From an uncultured Bacteroidota bacterium (GTDB taxonomy: Bacteria > Bacteroidota > Bacteroidia > Flavobacteriales > Flavobacteriaceae): a stretch of DNA of 64,000 nt. A model generated the notes under the pieces. That model worked only from the letters and a program-made list of their open reading frames with translations. It was not told the origin of the DNA and did no database searches. Below are positions 40,094 through 55,707 of this stretch, one piece after another. The stretch lies in the NCBI GenBank assembly GCA_913047695.1, contig CAJWUI010000001.1:310001-374000 (forward strand). The letters are read 5' to 3'. The stretch's first letter is position 1. Each line of letters begins with the position of its first letter. Both the position numbers and the translations under genes were made by a program.

Positions 40094-40672
40094 ATGAAGA
40101 AGTCACTGGTAGCATTACTATGTATTTTAATGTCTTCGTGCTACAAAGCAGACGTAGTACAATATCAGAGCTGGAATTCAGATCCTTTTACGAAAGCAAG
40201 TGGTTATCAAGTTAATCGCTTACCGAGACAATATAATTCATTTAGTGGTGCTAGATTTTTAAGCAAATATGATGATACAATGTGGGCAGATATTGAAAAT
40301 TATTACAGTAATTTTTCAGACATTAAATTTGAAAGACATGGCCCAGTATTTATATCATTCTTTAACATTGAGAATGATGTGTCATATTGTAAAGGATGGA
40401 AAAAAGAGGAAAATATTTATGATGGAATAAAATGGTATATAACCATCAAAAAAGATGAGGAAAACATCTTATGGTTTGATCTTGATTATTACGGAACAGG
40501 TCAAGAAATTGAATATACCACAACCTATAAATATGAAGTAATTAATGGTTTACTCCATTTTTCAAATACAGGGGGTCAAGAATTTATATTCCATCCATCA
40601 GATAAAAATTACTCAAGAGAATTAATTGACACTGCTGATATAATTGAACAAGAAGGCTGTCTATTCTTATAA
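40094..40672 (+). CDS. tandem paralogous lipoprotein, copy 4 (unknown function)
   Basis: MKKSLVALLCILMSSCYKADVVQYQ; near-identical core to copy 5. Confidence 0.87.
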   Translation: MKKSLVALLCILMSSCYKADVVQYQSWNSDPFTKASGYQVNRLPRQYNSFSGARFLSKYDDTMWADIENYYSNFSDIKFERHGPVFISFFNIENDVSYCKGWKKEENIYDGIKWYITIKKDEENILWFDLDYYGTGQEIEYTTTYKYEVINGLLHFSNTGGQEFIFHPSDKNYSRELIDTADIIEQEGCLFL

Positions 40673-47257: not shown

Positions 47258-47854
47258 TTATCGTTTTCGGGTTAATAAAACTTTTTCAACATCACTAAGT
47301 CTAAAGCCTTTTGCTTGCAATAAAATTAGATAGTGAAATAATAAATCTGCACTTTCGTTTAGAAAAAGTTCTTTATTTTCATCTTTAGCTTCTATAATTG
47401 TTTCTGTGGCTTCCTCCCCTACTTTTTGAGCGATTTTATTTATCCCTTCTCGAAATAATGAAGCAACGTAACTATTCTTTTTATTATACTTTTTTCTATC
47501 AGCAATTTTTTCTTCTAGTTGAGATAGAAAACCAAAATTGCTTAAATTTTTCTCTCCCCAACAATTATCGGTACCCAAATGACAAGTTGGCCCTTCCGGT
47601 TTTACATAAATTAAAATAGTATCATTATCACAGTCCGCCTTCATATTTATTAGGCGGAGATAGTTTCCACTTTCCTCACCCTTAGTCCATAAGCGTTTTT
47701 TTGTTCTGCTATAAAATGTAACGTTACCTGTTTTCTTCGTTTTTCTCACAGCTTCATCATTCATATATCCGAGCATCAAAACAGTCTTTGTAATGCTATC
47801 TTGAATAATTACTGGTATCAGACCATCTTTATTTTTTGAATAATTTAGTTCCAT
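47258..47854 (-). CDS. hisIE: bifunctional phosphoribosyl-AMP cyclohydrolase / phosphoribosyl-ATP diphosphatase
   Basis: VLMLGYMNDEAVRKTKKTGNVTFYSRTKKRLWTKGEESGNYLR; CHLGTDNCWG; KVGEEATETIIEAKDENKEL. Confidence 0.97.
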   Translation of the reverse strand: MELNYSKNKDGLIPVIIQDSITKTVLMLGYMNDEAVRKTKKTGNVTFYSRTKKRLWTKGEESGNYLRLINMKADCDNDTILIYVKPEGPTCHLGTDNCWGEKNLSNFGFLSQLEEKIADRKKYNKKNSYVASLFREGINKIAQKVGEEATETIIEAKDENKELFLNESADLLFHYLILLQAKGFRLSDVEKVLLTRKR

Positions 47855-47858
47855 AAGC

Positions 47859-48614
47859 TCAGATTCTAACAGCAATATGCTGTGTTTTTAATTGTTTTTT
47901 TAAGTTAAATAAGTCAATTTCATCAAAGTGGAAAATACTAGCGGCCAAAGCTGCATCTGCATTTCCTATTTTAAATACTTCTGTAAAATGTTCTATTGTT
48001 CCAGCGCCTCCTGATGCAATAATAGGTATATTAACAGTTTCAGATAGTTTAGCTAAGGCTTTATTTGCAAAACCATTTTTAGTGCCATCATGATCCATAG
48101 ATGTAAATAGAATTTCTCCAGCTCCCCTATCCTCTACTTCTCTTGCCCATTCAAAAAGATCAACTTTAGTGACTTCTTTACCACCAACCAGGTGAATTTT
48201 CCATTCATTATTAATTTGTTTTGCATCTATGGCAACCACCAAACATTGATTTCCAAATCGTGTTGCAACTTCATCAATTAATTTTGGCCGTTTGACTGCT
48301 GCAGAATTTATAGAAATTTTATCCGCACCATTTTTCAATAGCAGATAAACATCTTCAATAGAACCTATGCCTCCGCCAACAGTGAAAGGGATATCAATTG
48401 CTGCAGCAATTCTTAAAACAAGCTTAGCTAGTGTCTTACGTTTTTGCTCTGTTGCTGAGATATCTAAAAAGACTAATTCGTCAGCATTTTGATAAGCATA
48501 TTTTTTTGCAAGGTTAACTGGATCACCAGCATCTCTAAGGTTAATAAAATTTACACCTTTAACGGTTCTACCGTCTTTAATATCTAAACATGGTATTATT
48601 CGCTTTGTTAACAT
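47859..48614 (-). CDS. hisF: imidazole glycerol phosphate synthase subunit HisF
   Basis: [39 protein letters not shown]. Confidence 0.98.
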
Positions 48615-49117
48615 TATTTTTCATTCAAATTTCTATCATCATAGAACCCTAAATCACATTTAGTTAATTGCTTTACCCAAAAGGCAATTTGACCCACATG
48701 ATATGAAAAGTGTTCTACTGCATGCAAAACAACTCCAAGTCCTGATAATTCAAAACCTTGAACTATGCGATATTCAATAAATTGATTTTTAGTGGTTTTA
48801 TTAATTACTAATTTAGATTCCGTTATTGTTTTATCTAATTTTTCCAATAATTCAATTTTATTAAATCCTCGATCTGTTAAAAATTCTAAATTACGTTCTC
48901 TTTTATCAACATTTTCTCCAAGTGAAGAAATTATGTATTGAGTCATATTACCCGAGCAATGCAATAATTGATTACCCAAGGCCATTCCATTATTGACCGG
49001 CAGCTTCCATAAATCATTCTCTGCTACTTTGGCTAGTGCAATGTGAATCATACGCTGGCCCTCATCCAAACGATAACAGCAGTTTTTTTTAAACTCCCTA
49101 AGAAAAGATTCTACCAT
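48614..49117 (-). CDS. DUF1572/DinB-like protein encoded within the his operon
   Basis: [33 protein letters not shown]...[23 protein letters not shown]; between hisA and hisF. Confidence 0.8.
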
Positions 49118-49119
49118 GT

Positions 49120-49842
49120 TTAATTATTTAAATTATATTTTTCAAGTTCTTTTAATGAAATACTTTCTTCATAAATTGCTTTTCCTATTATTGCTCCCCC
49201 ACATCCTATTTCTCTGAGTTCAGTAATGTCTTCAATTTTCGAAATACCTCCTGATGCAATAAGATCTATACTATTTTGGTTTAAAATTTTTTTATAAAGA
49301 CTAATTGATGGACCTTTTAACATTCCGTCCTTACTAACATCGGTGCATATAGTTGTTTTAACTCCACCATCAATATAGAATGATAAAAATTTATTTATTG
49401 TTTGATTAGATGTTTCAACCCAGCCATTTATCATTATATTTTGCCCATTTACATCTGATCCCAATATAATTTTATCAGCCCCGTATATCTCTATCCATTC
49501 CAAAAATAAAGTTGAATTCTTAACAGCTACACTACCGCCCGTAATTTTTTTTGCTCCACATTCAAAAGCAATCTCAAGATCTTTATTTGATTTTAGACCC
49601 CCACCAAAATCTATATTTAGATTTGTTTTTGTTGCTATTAGTTCTAAAACTTTATGATTTACAATATGATTAGATCTTGCACCATCTAAATCAACAAGGT
49701 GTAAAAATTTAAACCCATGATCTTCGAAAGCTTTAGCTACTTCAAGAGGGTTTTCATTATAAACTTTTTTCTTATTATAATCACCATTTGTAAGGCGGAC
49801 ACATTTTCCATCTATTATGTCTATTGCAGGTATAACTCTCAT
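49120..49842 (-). CDS. hisA: phosphoribosylformimino-5-aminoimidazole carboxamide ribotide isomerase
   Basis: [56 protein letters not shown]. Confidence 0.97.
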
Positions 49843-50417
49843 AATTCTAAGAAATTCTTTAATAGTTGAGATCCAGCAGCACTACTCTTTTCAGGATGAA
49901 ATTGAACACCAAAAAAATTTTCTTTCTGAACCGCAACACTATAAGTTAAGCCATATTCACTTTGACCTATTGTTTCATTTATTGTGGGAACATAGTATGA
50001 GTGTACTAAGTACATGTAATCCCCCTCTTTAATTTTATTAAAAAGCCTTGTCTTAAGTTTTTTAACCTTATTCCAACCCATCTGCGGCACTTTAAATTTA
50101 TCAGAAAATTTGATGACATTACATTTTATAATTCCTAAACCATTAACATCTCCTTCTTCAGTATTTTCGCATAATAATTGCATGCCAAGACAAATTCCTA
50201 AAACAGGCTGTTTTAAATTTGGAATTAATTTGTCTAAGCCAACTTGTTTTAACTTATCCATTGCAGTTGATGCAGCTCCTTGACCTGGAAAAATTACTTT
50301 TTCTGATTTCCTTATAAGTCCGTAATCGTTTGTTAAAATACTTTTTACTCCTAATCGTTCAAGAGCAAATTGTAAACTTTTTACATTTCCAACATTATAG
50401 TCTATTATAGCAACCAT
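49839..50417 (-). CDS. hisH: imidazole glycerol phosphate synthase subunit HisH
   Basis: [50 protein letters not shown]. Confidence 0.97.
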
Positions 50418-51544
50418 TATAAATTCCCTTTAGTAGAAGGTAATATCATTTTGTCAGGGTCACGTTTTATAGCTTGTTTAATAGCTCTTGCAAAGGCTTT
50501 AAAAATAGCCTCTATTTTATGGTGTTCATTTTTACCCTCTGCTTTGATATTTAGATTAACCTTGGCCCCATCGCAAAAAGACTTAAAAAAATGCATAAAC
50601 ATCTCTGTAGGCATTTTACCAATCATTTCACGTTTAAATTCAGCTTCCCAAACAAGCCAGCTACGACCACCGAAATCTAGACTTACCTGTGCAAGACAGT
50701 CATCCATTGGCAAGCAAAAGCCATAACGTTCAATACCAATTTTTTCTGCTAAAGCAACACGAAAAGCCTCCCCTAGTGTTATTCCAGCATCTTCAATTGT
50801 GTGATGTTCATCTACATCTAAATCACCATTTATTTTAAGATCTAAATCTATACCACCATGACGGGCTAATTGATCAAGCATGTGATCAAAAAAACTAATC
50901 CCCGTATCAATACTGCTTTTGCCTACGCCATCAAGATTAAGGTTCATAATAATATCAGTTTCGTTTGTTTTCCTTTTCTTCATTACCGTCCTATCTTTTA
51001 ACTTTAAATGTGAATAAATCTCAGACCAAGAATTAGTTTTTAGAGATATAACCTCGTCAAAATCATTTTTTGTTTCCTCCTTAAGTTTTATGTTATCTAT
51101 GTTTATTAATATACCTTTTGAATTCAAATTTTTGGCTAATTCCATGTCTGATATTCGGTCGCCAATAACATAAGATTCAGACAAATTATACTCGCTATTA
51201 TCTAAAAAATTGGTTAACATACCAGTTCTAGGTTTTCTTGTTGCAGCATTATCTTTCGGAAAGCTTCTATCAATGAAAATTTCAGAGAATGTAACTCCCT
51301 CATTTTTAAAACTATTTAAAAGTTTATTATGAGCTGGCCAAAAAAATTCCTCCGGAAAACTTTTCGTACCTAATCCATCTTGATTAGTCACCATAACTAA
51401 CTCATAATCTAATTCTTTTGAGATTTTTCCTAGATAAGTAAAAACCTCAGGATAAAATTCAAGTTTTTCTAACGAATCAATTTGTTCATCATCAGGTTCA
51501 AGTACAAGAGTTCCATCACGGTCGATAAATAAAATTTTTTTCAT
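50417..51544 (-). CDS. hisB: bifunctional histidinol-phosphatase / imidazoleglycerol-phosphate dehydratase
   Basis: [65 protein letters not shown]. Confidence 0.97.
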
Positions 51545-52590
51545 TTTCTATCAATATTATTCAAAACATCAATTAACCTCGTATTTTCCTCATTAAGACC
51601 AACTGTAATTCTTAACGTATTTTCACAATTCAAATTTTTGGATGAATTTCTAACAACAATACCATTATCAATGAGTTGCTGGTATCTTAAATTACTGTCA
51701 TCTACTTTAATAAATAGAAAATTCGCATCCGATTGATATACAGTAACAATAAAACTGATTTTTCTTAGAGCATTTTCTATTCTTTTTCTTTCTTTGAGTA
51801 TAATTTTCACTTGTTTTTTAATTAAATTTTGTTCCCCTAACCTTACTAAGGCAGCAGATTGTGTAAGGGAATTTAAATTATAAGGTGCTTTAATCTTATT
51901 CATATAAGCGATAAGTTTGGAGTTTGCAAAAGTCATTCCTAATCTTGCACCCGCCATACCTTGGCCTTTTGAAAAGGTTTGACAAACAATAAGATTTGAG
52001 TATTTTTTGATTGAATCTACAAAAGATGAAGAATTTGAGAACTCAATGTAGGCTTCATCTACAACAACAAGTCCACTAAAATTTTGAATAATTTTTATTA
52101 TTGATTTTAATTTGAAGTTGTTAGCTGTAGGATTATTAGGTGTAGGGATAAAGATAATTTTTGAATTTTTGTTAGATTTTTCCAAAACTAATTGAGTATC
52201 AATTTGAAACGAGTTGTCTAAGGGTACTTCTTTAACTTCAACACCTTGAACACGAGCTGAAACTTTATACATTCCAAAAGTTGGGGGAAGAGTTATTATA
52301 TTATCTATTCCAGGTTCACAAAAAGCCATTATTAATTGTGATATAGATTCGTCACTCCCGTTGCTGAGATAAATTTGATTTTCATTAACATTTTTCCAAT
52401 TTGCAATGCAATTTTTCAATTTTATTTGCATGGGATCTGGGTATCTATTAAAACTGGAGGTAAAAGGATTTTCATTTGCGTCCAAAAGAATCATTTTCAC
52501 TCCTTGATTAACATATTCTTCTCTGGCAGATCGATAAGGTATCAGATCAATTAGATTTTTTCGAAAAAACCGATCAACTTTATTTTTCAT
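51541..52590 (-). CDS. hisC: histidinol-phosphate aminotransferase
   Basis: [46 protein letters not shown]. Confidence 0.96.
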
Positions 52591-53872
52591 CTCCCAATTT
52601 TTTTAATCTAACGCTAACAGCATTTTTATGTGCCTGTAATCCTTCTGCATCAGCCATTAATTCAATTGTTTCACCCAAAAGCTGGATTCCTTTTTTACTT
52701 ATTTTTTGAAATGTTACAGATTTAGTAAAACTATCCAAATTTACTCCGCTGTATTGTTTTGAATAACCATTTGTAGGCAAAGTGTGATTAGTTCCTGATG
52801 CGTAATCACCAGCACTTTCAGGGGTGTAATTACCAATAAAAACCGATCCCGCATTTTTTACATTTTTAATATAGTAATCCTCATTCTTAACACATATAAT
52901 GTAGTGTTCAGGACCATATTCATTAATAAAATCTACAGCACTTTTATCATTATCAAATATTATTGCCTTAGAATTTAAAAGAGCATTTTTAACTATATCA
53001 TTTCGCGGTAACTCATCTATTTGATAAGTAATTGATTGATTTACTTTCTCTACAAAATCTTTTTTTGTACTCACCAAAACTACCTGGCTGTCGAGTCCGT
53101 GTTCTGCTTGAGATAAAAGGTCCGAAGCTACAAAATCAGGATCTGCAGTATCATCGGCTGCTACCAATAATTCGCTGGGACCTGCCGGCATATCAATTGA
53201 AACACTGTAACGAGTTGCAAATTGCTTTGCAGAGGTGACATATTGATTGCCAGGACCGAAAATTTTATAAACTTTAGGTATACTTTCAGTACCAAATGTC
53301 ATTGCAGCAATAGCTTGAATTCCTCCAACTTTAAAAATTTTATCAATTCCACAGAGTGAAGCCGTAAAAAGGACTTCATCAGAGATTTTACCATATAAAT
53401 TGGGTGGAGAGCACAAAATTATTTCTTCACAACCAGCAATCTTTGCGGGAGTAGCTAACATTAATATTGTCGAAAATAAAGGCGCAGATCCACTAGGAAT
53501 ATAAAGTCCAATTTTTTCTATTGGCAATTTTTCTTGCCAGCAAATTACGCCTTCTTGAGTTTCAACCTGAATTTTGTTTGTTTTTTGTGCCTTATGAAAA
53601 GTATAGATATTATCCTTTGCATTTTGAATTGCATTTTTAAGATTCTTGGGGATATTTCTAATTGCTTTTGAAATTTCATTATCATTTACAGCAAATTCTT
53701 TAAGCTCGAATTTGTCAAATTGTTTCGCATAATTTAATAATGCTTCATCACCATGATTTCTGATATTTTCAAAAACTTCATTAACCAGTACCTGGTGATC
53801 ATCCAAAGAAAAAGTAGGTCGCTGAATAAGGGCCTTCCAAGTAGGTTTTGAGGGGTTATTAAATTGATTCAT
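52580..53872 (-). CDS. hisD: histidinol dehydrogenase
   Basis: IGLYIPSGSAPLFSTILMLATPAKIAGC; KIFGPGNQYVTSAKQF; MPAGPSELLVAADD; start placed at ATG 53872, giving a TGATG overlap with hisG. Confidence 0.96.
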   Translation of the reverse strand: MNQFNNPSKPTWKALIQRPTFSLDDHQVLVNEVFENIRNHGDEALLNYAKQFDKFELKEFAVNDNEISKAIRNIPKNLKNAIQNAKDNIYTFHKAQKTNKIQVETQEGVICWQEKLPIEKIGLYIPSGSAPLFSTILMLATPAKIAGCEEIILCSPPNLYGKISDEVLFTASLCGIDKIFKVGGIQAIAAMTFGTESIPKVYKIFGPGNQYVTSAKQFATRYSVSIDMPAGPSELLVAADDTADPDFVASDLLSQAEHGLDSQVVLVSTKKDFVEKVNQSITYQIDELPRNDIVKNALLNSKAIIFDNDKSAVDFINEYGPEHYIICVKNEDYYIKNVKNAGSVFIGNYTPESAGDYASGTNHTLPTNGYSKQYSGVNLDSFTKSVTFQKISKKGIQLLGETIELMADAEGLQAHKNAVSVRLKKLGDEK

Positions 53873-54723
53873 CACAAAACCATCTTTTCTATTGGACATA
53901 CTAATATGTCTTCTGCACCAGCCTCTTTCAATTGATCGATAACTTCCCAAAAATCCTCATCATTTATAACTGAATGTAATGAGCTCCAACCCTCCACAGC
54001 TAAAGGTAAAACAGTAGGGCTTTTCAAAACTGGAAGTATAGAACTGACAGATTTAATTTTATTATTGGGAGCATTAAGTAAAATGTACTTTGATTTTTTA
54101 GCCCTTAAAACAGATTGAACTCTGAATTGAAATTTCTCTATATAACTCAATTTTTCATTGTTCAATTTATTACCCTTTACAAGAACAGCTTGAGAGTCAC
54201 TAATTTTAATAACTTCTTTAAGGTTATTTTTAAATAGTGTACTACCAGTTGACACAATATCACATATTGCGTCAGCCAAACCAATATTAGGTGCTATTTC
54301 AACTGATCCATTAATGATGTGTAAATCAGCCTTAATTTTATTTTTCTTTAAAAAAGAATTTACTGTGTTTGGATAAGATGTAGCAATACGCTTTCCATCC
54401 AAGTCGTGAATCCCATTGAATTGGAAATTATTAGGGACGGCAATAGCTGTACGGCAGGATGAGAAACCAAGTCTTTCAATAACTTTTAAATCAACTTCTT
54501 TCTCTTTAAGAAGGTTTTCACCTACTATGGCTAGATCTACCACACCATCTATAAGATATTGAGGAATATCACTATTACGTAAAAAGAAAATTTCAATTGG
54601 AAAGTTACGTGCCGATACCTTCAATTGATTTTCACCATTTTCAATTGAAATTCCACAATCCGATAACAAATTCAAAGATCCTTTATTTAGCCTTCCTGAT
54701 TTTTGTATAGCAAGTCGTATCAT
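53872..54723 (-). CDS. hisG: ATP phosphoribosyltransferase
   Basis: MIRLAIQKSGRLNKGSLNLLSDCGI; VDLAIVGENLLKE; ADAICDIVSTGSTLFKNNLKEV. Confidence 0.97.
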   Translation of the reverse strand: MIRLAIQKSGRLNKGSLNLLSDCGISIENGENQLKVSARNFPIEIFFLRNSDIPQYLIDGVVDLAIVGENLLKEKEVDLKVIERLGFSSCRTAIAVPNNFQFNGIHDLDGKRIATSYPNTVNSFLKKNKIKADLHIINGSVEIAPNIGLADAICDIVSTGSTLFKNNLKEVIKISDSQAVLVKGNKLNNEKLSYIEKFQFRVQSVLRAKKSKYILLNAPNNKIKSVSSILPVLKSPTVLPLAVEGWSSLHSVINDEDFWEVIDQLKEAGAEDILVCPIEKMVL

Positions 54724-54738
54724 AATATTTAAATTAAA

Positions 54739-54766
54739 AAACCCGTTTGATTTCTCAAACGGGTTT
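54739..54766 (-). terminator. intrinsic terminator (attenuator) in the hisG leader
   Basis: Minus strand AAACCCGTTTGA-GAAA-TCAAACGGGTTT followed by TTTT; 12-bp perfect stem, GAAA tetraloop, 15 nt upstream of hisG ATG. Confidence 0.9.
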
Positions 54767-54805
54767 AAATTATTTCATAGACAAATTATCTACTTCTCGT
54801 TTGAG
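54754..54805 (-). promoter_or_regulatory. candidate antiterminator pairing of the his attenuator
   Basis: Minus-strand CTCAAACG (54805..54798) is exactly complementary to CGTTTGAG (54761..54754), the 5' arm of the terminator. Confidence 0.7.
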
Positions 54806-54846
54806 CAGTTTTCAAATTGGTGAATATGATGTAACAATGTTTTCAT
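54790..54846 (-). CDS. candidate his operon leader peptide MKTLLHHIHQFENCSNEK
   Basis: ATG AAA ACA TTG TTA CAT CAT ATT CAC CAA TTT GAA AAC TGC TCA AAC GAG AAG TAG; 3 His in 4 codons; directly upstream of the terminator before hisG. Confidence 0.78.
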   Translation of the reverse strand: MKTLLHHIHQFENCSNEK

Positions 54847-54853
54847 TAAAGTG

Positions 54854-54861
54854 CAAATATA
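54854..54861 (-). promoter_or_regulatory. candidate Bacteroidota -7 box (TATATTTG) of the his operon
   Basis: Matches TAnnTTTG; 7 nt between box and leader ATG; no convincing -33 TTTG at consensus spacing. Confidence 0.5.
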
Positions 54862-54888: not shown

Positions 54889-55707
54889 TTATTGATTACC
54901 TAATATTATTGGTAGACCATCTTTCCCACTTCCGATAATGATAACCTTTGAATTTGCTGATTCTGACAACTTTGTTGTAGCTTCAATTCCTTTTTCTTGG
55001 AGAATCTTTTGAGTTAATGAAGCACTTAAAATTCTGTTAGCTGTAGCTTTTCCTTCAGCATCAATTCTTTGACGTTCAGCCTCTTGCTTTGCCTTTTCAA
55101 TTCGAAATTCATATTCTAAAGCCTCTTGTTCTTGACGTAATTTTCTTTCGATGGCTTCTTTAATGGCAACTGGAAGGGTAACATCTCTAACAAGAACTGC
55201 ATTTAATTGAATATGCTGAGACTCAACATTTTTTTGAGTCTCTTCAAATATTTCATTTTGAATAGCATCTCGTTTTGTCGAATAAAGCTGCTCTGGTGTG
55301 TAACGACCAACAACAGATCTCGCAACAGCCCTAATTTGAGGGATTAAAACAATATTTACGTAGTTTTCACCTTTAGTTTTATGGAGCAATCCCAGCTCAC
55401 TGTATTTTGGTTGATACAAAACAGAAACGTCAAGTGAAATTTCTAATCCATTTGAAGAAAGCACTTGCATGTTTCCTTCAAAAAATTCTTGTTGTTTCAC
55501 ATTGTAAATGAAAACCTTATTCCATGGAGCTATAATATGGAATCCTTCGCCAAGTGGTGCTTGATCAGTAACTACTCCTCCTCCAAAAGTCTTAAAAAGA
55601 ACACCCGCTTCTCCATAACCAATATTAATTGATGATTTTGAAATAAATATAAGTAGAACGACAACCAATAAAATTACTGGTAATCCAATTTTAGGTAATT
55701 TTTGCAT
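54889..55707 (-). CDS. prohibitin/SPFH (band 7) family membrane protein
   Basis: N-terminal TM; GEAGVLFKTFGGGVVTDQAPLGEGFHIIAPWNKVFIYNVKQQEF; long EAERQRIDAEGKA helix. Confidence 0.93.
   Translation of the reverse strand: MQKLPKIGLPVILLVVVLLIFISKSSINIGYGEAGVLFKTFGGGVVTDQAPLGEGFHIIAPWNKVFIYNVKQQEFFEGNMQVLSSNGLEISLDVSVLYQPKYSELGLLHKTKGENYVNIVLIPQIRAVARSVVGRYTPEQLYSTKRDAIQNEIFEETQKNVESQHIQLNAVLVRDVTLPVAIKEAIERKLRQEQEALEYEFRIEKAKQEAERQRIDAEGKATANRILSASLTQKILQEKGIEATTKLSESANSKVIIIGSGKDGLPIILGNQ

Follow-up and report, generated by a model that had tools for sequence, protein, structure and literature searches.

A putative ribosome-mediated attenuator in front of the histidine operon of a marine flavobacterium and its relatives in the Bacteroidota

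The 64,000-nt stretch of genomic DNA analysed here (the window) belongs to a marine flavobacterium whose HisG is 96% identical to that of the closest record found, the uncultured isolate AG-891-I06. Its minus strand carries a histidine operon that opens with hisG (54723..53872), recognized by matches to TIGR00070 and TIGR03455 above cut-off, and continues through hisD, hisC, hisB, hisH, hisA, a gene for a DUF1572 protein and hisF (53869..47859). The DUF1572/DinB-like protein (48614-49117, minus strand) is encoded within the operon, between hisA and hisF, and an ORF that appears hisIE-like on inspection of the sequence (47258-47875, minus strand) comes after hisF. Upstream of hisG, on the same strand, a SPFH/Band 7 gene (54889-55707) ends 42 nt before the ATG of a short leader ORF. 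Elsewhere in the window, an identical 30-codon ORF, MAQYLYHSLTLRMMCHIVKDGKKRKIFMME, occurs twice on the plus strand, at 40338 and 40935, 597 bp apart, and a TAnnTTTG box lies 6 nt ahead of it.

Read in the direction of transcription, the interval before hisG holds a compact series of elements, all on the minus strand. A putative promoter box, TATATTTG (54861..54854), is assigned by its match to the consensus of the Bacteroidota sigma-A -7 box, TAnnTTTG. It is followed by an 18-codon leader ORF, MKTLLHHIHQFENCSNEK (54846..54790), which has three His codons inside four positions (codons 6, 7 and 9; CAT CAT ATT CAC, 54831..54820). Beyond the leader stop codon (TAG) and a 23-nt spacer lies a 12-bp intrinsic terminator, AAACCCGTTTGA-GAAA-TCAAACGGGTTT (54766..54739), with a T-run at 54741..54736, and another 15 nt separate it from the hisG ATG (54723). 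The final leader codons contain segment 2, CTCAAACG (54805..54798), the candidate 5' arm of an antiterminator. Its perfect 8-nt complement, segment 3, CGTTTGAG (54761..54754), consists of seven bases of the terminator 5' arm and one base of its loop, and is common to the antiterminator (2:3) and the terminator (3:4). The first-pass annotation of this DNA had described the ORF with its His codons, the exact complementarity of the two segments and the terminator with its GAAA loop and U-tract between leader and hisG; all of these were found where it had placed them, and only the gap from CTCAAACG to the TAG needs correction, from 7 to 5 nt. The stretch from leader to terminator folds better than its dinucleotide shuffles (z = -3.56). 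Terminator-like hairpins occur in shuffled sequence at about the frequency seen in the region (6 sites found, 4.2 expected by chance), so the case made by this single sequence is suggestive only, and it is conservation in relatives that raises the element above chance.

For comparison with relatives, DNA from upstream of hisG was gathered within the genus, elsewhere in the Flavobacteriales and in the class Bacteroidia, giving 248 distinct regions, most of them from Bacteroidia. A short ORF with at least three His in eight codons is present in 226 of them, compared with 1.9% of mononucleotide shuffles, and in 223/248 the leader and a downstream terminator occur together. When ORFs were restricted to ATG starts, His-rich examples were found in 215/248 regions, against 37/248 for the runner-up amino acid, Leu. 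Within the genus, the His codons stand at positions 6, 7 and 9, at 7, 9 and 10, or in other patterns, two to four of them being retained; this shifting of positions among relatives indicates that the number of His codons, not the exact sequence, is kept.

The pairing of the RNA segments is conserved as well. Across 36 divergent Flavobacteriales, 90.8% of the cells in the antiterminator 2:3 are paired and four of the eight pairs have changed on both sides. The covariation score of this helix is 0.258 compared with 0.201 after shuffling; 1 of 500 shuffles, a procedure that does not remove sequence relatedness, reached the observed score, and registers slid away from the true one score at most 0.154. 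For the terminator 3:4 the figures in Flavobacteriales are 95.8% paired, with 7 of 12 pairs covarying. Distant relatives have different sequences and keep the pairing, as in CUaAGACGG with CCGUCUgAG (one mismatch) in family f7, GGGUAAGC with GCUUACCC at locus L159 and CUCCACGGUGAGA with GCUCGCUGUGGAU at locus L134. When leader tails were paired with their own and with swapped terminator arms, 18 of 44 arm classes fell in the best tenth, where about 4 would be expected; this test is only moderately discriminating, since many families reuse similar arms, and for that reason the leader tails were also compared with shuffled ones and complements of the terminator arm were sought without restriction. 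Against dinucleotide-shuffled leader tails, the 2:3 duplex gave a mean z of -2.91 in 76 Flavobacteriales and of -1.74 in 43 loci from other orders. In the unrestricted search, which ran from shortly upstream of the leader as far as the terminator in 119 representatives, the best complement of the terminator arm lay downstream of the last His codon and no further than just beyond the stop in 108 of them, compared with 31% expected from length; at 4 of 34 same-genus loci it lay elsewhere. Relatives in which the terminator persists without the His-rich ORF or without compensatory changes had been named beforehand as the finding that would speak against attenuation, and the opposite was seen: the ORF is kept and both helices covary.

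These features also fit the movements expected of a translating ribosome. A stalled ribosome covers about 12 nt beyond its A site. The distance from the first His codon to the start of segment 2 is 26 nt in the window copy and 21-30 nt in about 80% of loci (a spacing count of 164/164 partly reflects how segment 2 was searched for, the unrestricted search giving the 108/119 above), so a ribosome waiting at that codon should leave segment 2 free. When the exposed RNA was folded as it would be before arm 4 exists, with the ribosome at any of the three His codons, the antiterminator was obtained (-12.7 kcal/mol); with the ribosome at the stop codon, the exposed RNA had no structure and subsequently formed the terminator alone (-17.1 kcal/mol). 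The earlier proposal that ribosome position decides the outcome, a stall freeing segment 2 and a ribosome at the stop covering it, agrees with both the geometry and this folding. At equilibrium, the full-length RNA favours the terminator in every case, stalled ribosome included, and the decision to read through must therefore be kinetic; read-through is kinetic in known attenuators, and for the window copy we infer the same co-transcriptional behaviour. An additional helix, which joins the region of the His codons to the RNA that follows the stop, has z below -1.5 in 45 of 84 representatives; in transcripts free of ribosomes it would, according to the model, tip the balance towards termination. 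This stem is weak in the window copy (z +0.1), and untranslated transcripts are consequently predicted to read through there.

The mechanism that we propose would run as follows. The transcript would start a few nucleotides ahead of the leader AUG, and translation of the leader peptide would begin at once. With His-tRNA uncharged, the ribosome would stall at His codon 6, 7 or 9 with its front edge short of segment 2; nascent CUCAAACG could then pair with CGUUUGAG, arm 3 would be occupied and the polymerase would continue into hisG. With His-tRNA charged, the ribosome would reach the UAG and cover segment 2, arms 3 and 4 would pair, and transcription would end before hisG. Translation of the leader and the response to histidine are predictions of this scheme. 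A leader of cognate codons, a terminator before the first gene, a covarying antiterminator that shares an arm with it, and a geometry that separates stalling from arrival at the stop were all found, and with these comparisons of sequence as the basis the element is best read, with high confidence, as a ribosome-mediated transcription attenuator of the his operon.

The element is specific to its place and widely spread. A covariance model built from it (R1) was run on 31 genomes; all 21 matches with E <=1.1e-6 lie just upstream of hisG, the next best match has E = 4.9e-4, and among these genomes those without a hisG match gave no strong match. Outside Bacteroidia, in the same phylum, a His-rich ORF followed by a terminator precedes hisG in several genomes (e.g. 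L326, L327, L329-L331), and the combination was not found there in others. The first-pass annotation had singled out this architecture in a flavobacterium; the attenuator itself is supported, and it is not peculiar to the window, since it is distributed across Bacteroidota, and an element 5' of hisG had been flagged before in F. psychrophilum (PMC9723704). Divergent forms exist. In the Bacteroidales-type leaders of family f56 (L177, L178, L180-L185), the many His codons fold into a hairpin of their own immediately ahead of the stop, and in some Bacteroidales (L177-L185) the His leader is kept with no clear or strong terminator after it, so the output step may differ there. The endosymbiont-sized, 600-kb genomes of the order (f17, Blattabacterium-like in size and order; L136-L138, L274-L283) have kept the promoter box and terminator before hisG in 13/13 cases, and in none of the 13 examined is there a His-rich leader ORF before hisG; in these genomes the terminator would be a fixed brake. 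A minimal 'Met-His-stop' leader was considered for them and dropped, as ATG CAT TAA occurs in some and is absent from others.

The condition of the f17 genomes suggests that the terminator of the window, too, might be a fixed brake from which histidine sensing has been lost. However, the window and its genus keep both the His codons and the complement, and the positions of the His codons move while their number is held, which makes this reading very improbable. Histidine could also act through the same parts in a different way, by nascent-peptide sensing of the free amino acid or mainly by translational coupling to hisG, given that His codons alone cannot tell uncharged tRNA from free histidine and that the Bacteroidales leaders lacking a clear terminator show that the output step can differ. 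Yet across families the peptide is little conserved apart from its number of His and the stretch that overlaps segment 2, and in the window copy the terminator is strong and the antiterminator covaries, so that we find such control scarcely credible here. Hardly tenable either is the notion that the hairpin, a good intrinsic terminator, merely ends the SPFH/Band 7 transcript, that gene stopping so close upstream on the same strand, with the short ORF arising by chance and hisG having a promoter of its own: hairpin and hisG are just 15 nt apart, a TAnnTTTG box stands upstream of the leader, genomes of other families retain leader, segment 2 and terminator together as one unit, and the 2:3 helix covaries.

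The attenuator, as we read it, would also be closely tied to its promoter. At 32 of 34 same-genus loci, the end of the TAnnTTTG box stands 5-8 nt ahead of the leader ATG. The box occupies positions -12 to -5 in F. psychrophilum (PMC9723704), from which a 5' UTR of 1-4 nt is predicted for the genus; the start site in the window would lie near 54849, with a predicted 5' UTR of 3 nt. Outside the genus, box-to-ATG distances are often 17-20 nt, and the very short 5' UTR therefore belongs to the genus and some relatives, not to the class. Leaderless mRNAs make up 5.5% in F. psychrophilum (PMC9723704), and 5' UTRs under 10 nt account for 3.7% in B. thetaiotaomicron (PMC7366714). A comparable case is the trpL attenuator of Sinorhizobium meliloti, in which the 5' end of the RNA is the leader AUG (PMC7298713); it differs in responding to Trp and in belonging to the Alphaproteobacteria, and its start site is known whereas that of the window is predicted.

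No Rfam family matches the element. RF00514 (His_leader) gave no match at gathering cut-off in the window or in 20 relatives, nor any up to E = 10 in the leader region, and T-box models likewise had no match in the window or its relatives. Permissive Rfam matches in the leader were all far below cut-off and were rejected, the best being SSRC10 at 32 bits versus 56. In our search of the open-access literature, no dedicated paper on a Bacteroidota his attenuator was found. Attenuators in Bacteroidetes/Chlorobi were reportedly predicted by Vitreschak et al. in 2004, where the abstract is said to mention them, and by Lopatovskaya et al. in 2010. The literature on how histidine synthesis is regulated in Bacteroidota is thin: a 2021 survey of his genes in the Bacteroidota superphylum discusses no leader. 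His attenuators are established in Proteobacteria (PMC3896937), and the review and surveys of histidine regulation consulted describe Proteobacteria and Gram-positives (PMC3896937, PMC9413887). The Proteobacterial his leader (RF00514; hisL of E. coli and Salmonella) likewise has a His-rich leader before hisG and an antiterminator that excludes the terminator, and the E. coli leader peptide, like that of the window, is described as 18 aa long (PMC3896937). However, E. coli has seven consecutive His codons (PMC3896937) and the window three non-consecutive ones, in an RNA of about 110 nt whose antiterminator arm lies inside the last leader codons and which has a putative Bacteroidota promoter and is predicted to carry a very short 5' UTR. 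In Firmicutes, candidate his attenuators similarly combine a leader of three to five His codons with an antiterminator and terminator, but they belong to another phylum, have other sequences and are confined to a few lineages (PMC9413887).

Closer to the window, the 2021 transcriptome paper on F. psychrophilum describes, 5' of hisG, a structured element that other Flavobacteriaceae conserve and that has no Rfam match, and it notes separately the clues to leader-peptide attenuation before amino-acid operons (PMC9723704). This is very probably the same element as ours; the main text reports neither a His leader nor a pairing scheme for it, and neither covariation nor a wider distribution (PMC9723704). 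The working principle is classical, and what is added here is the conservation, the covariation, the phylum-wide reach and the predicted near-leaderless arrangement. It seems to us an even question whether this is an ancient, Bacteroidota-wide his attenuator, absent from Rfam, which in the marine genus is coupled directly to the promoter, the start of transcription, initiation at an AUG close to the 5' end of a near-leaderless RNA (5' UTR 1-4 nt) and the sensing of histidine being joined in a single compact unit of a design common to the trp operon. One conserved leader missing from Rfam would account for the control of his genes in much of the phylum, and annotators would gain a missed small ORF before hisG. 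The element might further be used in vivo to report on stalled ribosomes and on initiation at very short 5' UTRs, the latter being of value because leaderless mRNAs and very short 5' UTRs account for only about 4-6% of the transcripts in those members that have been mapped.

Other amino-acid operons were inspected in passing. The ilvD upstream regions have no obvious attenuator, and the trpE leaders (L286-L293) match no Rfam family. In the genome of the window (G000:C5 upstream of 35864, L293), trpE is preceded by a short leader, MKNFICNISWWYAKQQILV, with two adjacent Trp codons. The same-genus loci L286-L292 share the adjacent Trp codons, and in all eight a TAnnTTTG-like box stands only 4-6 nt before the leader ATG and a terminator lies just before trpE.
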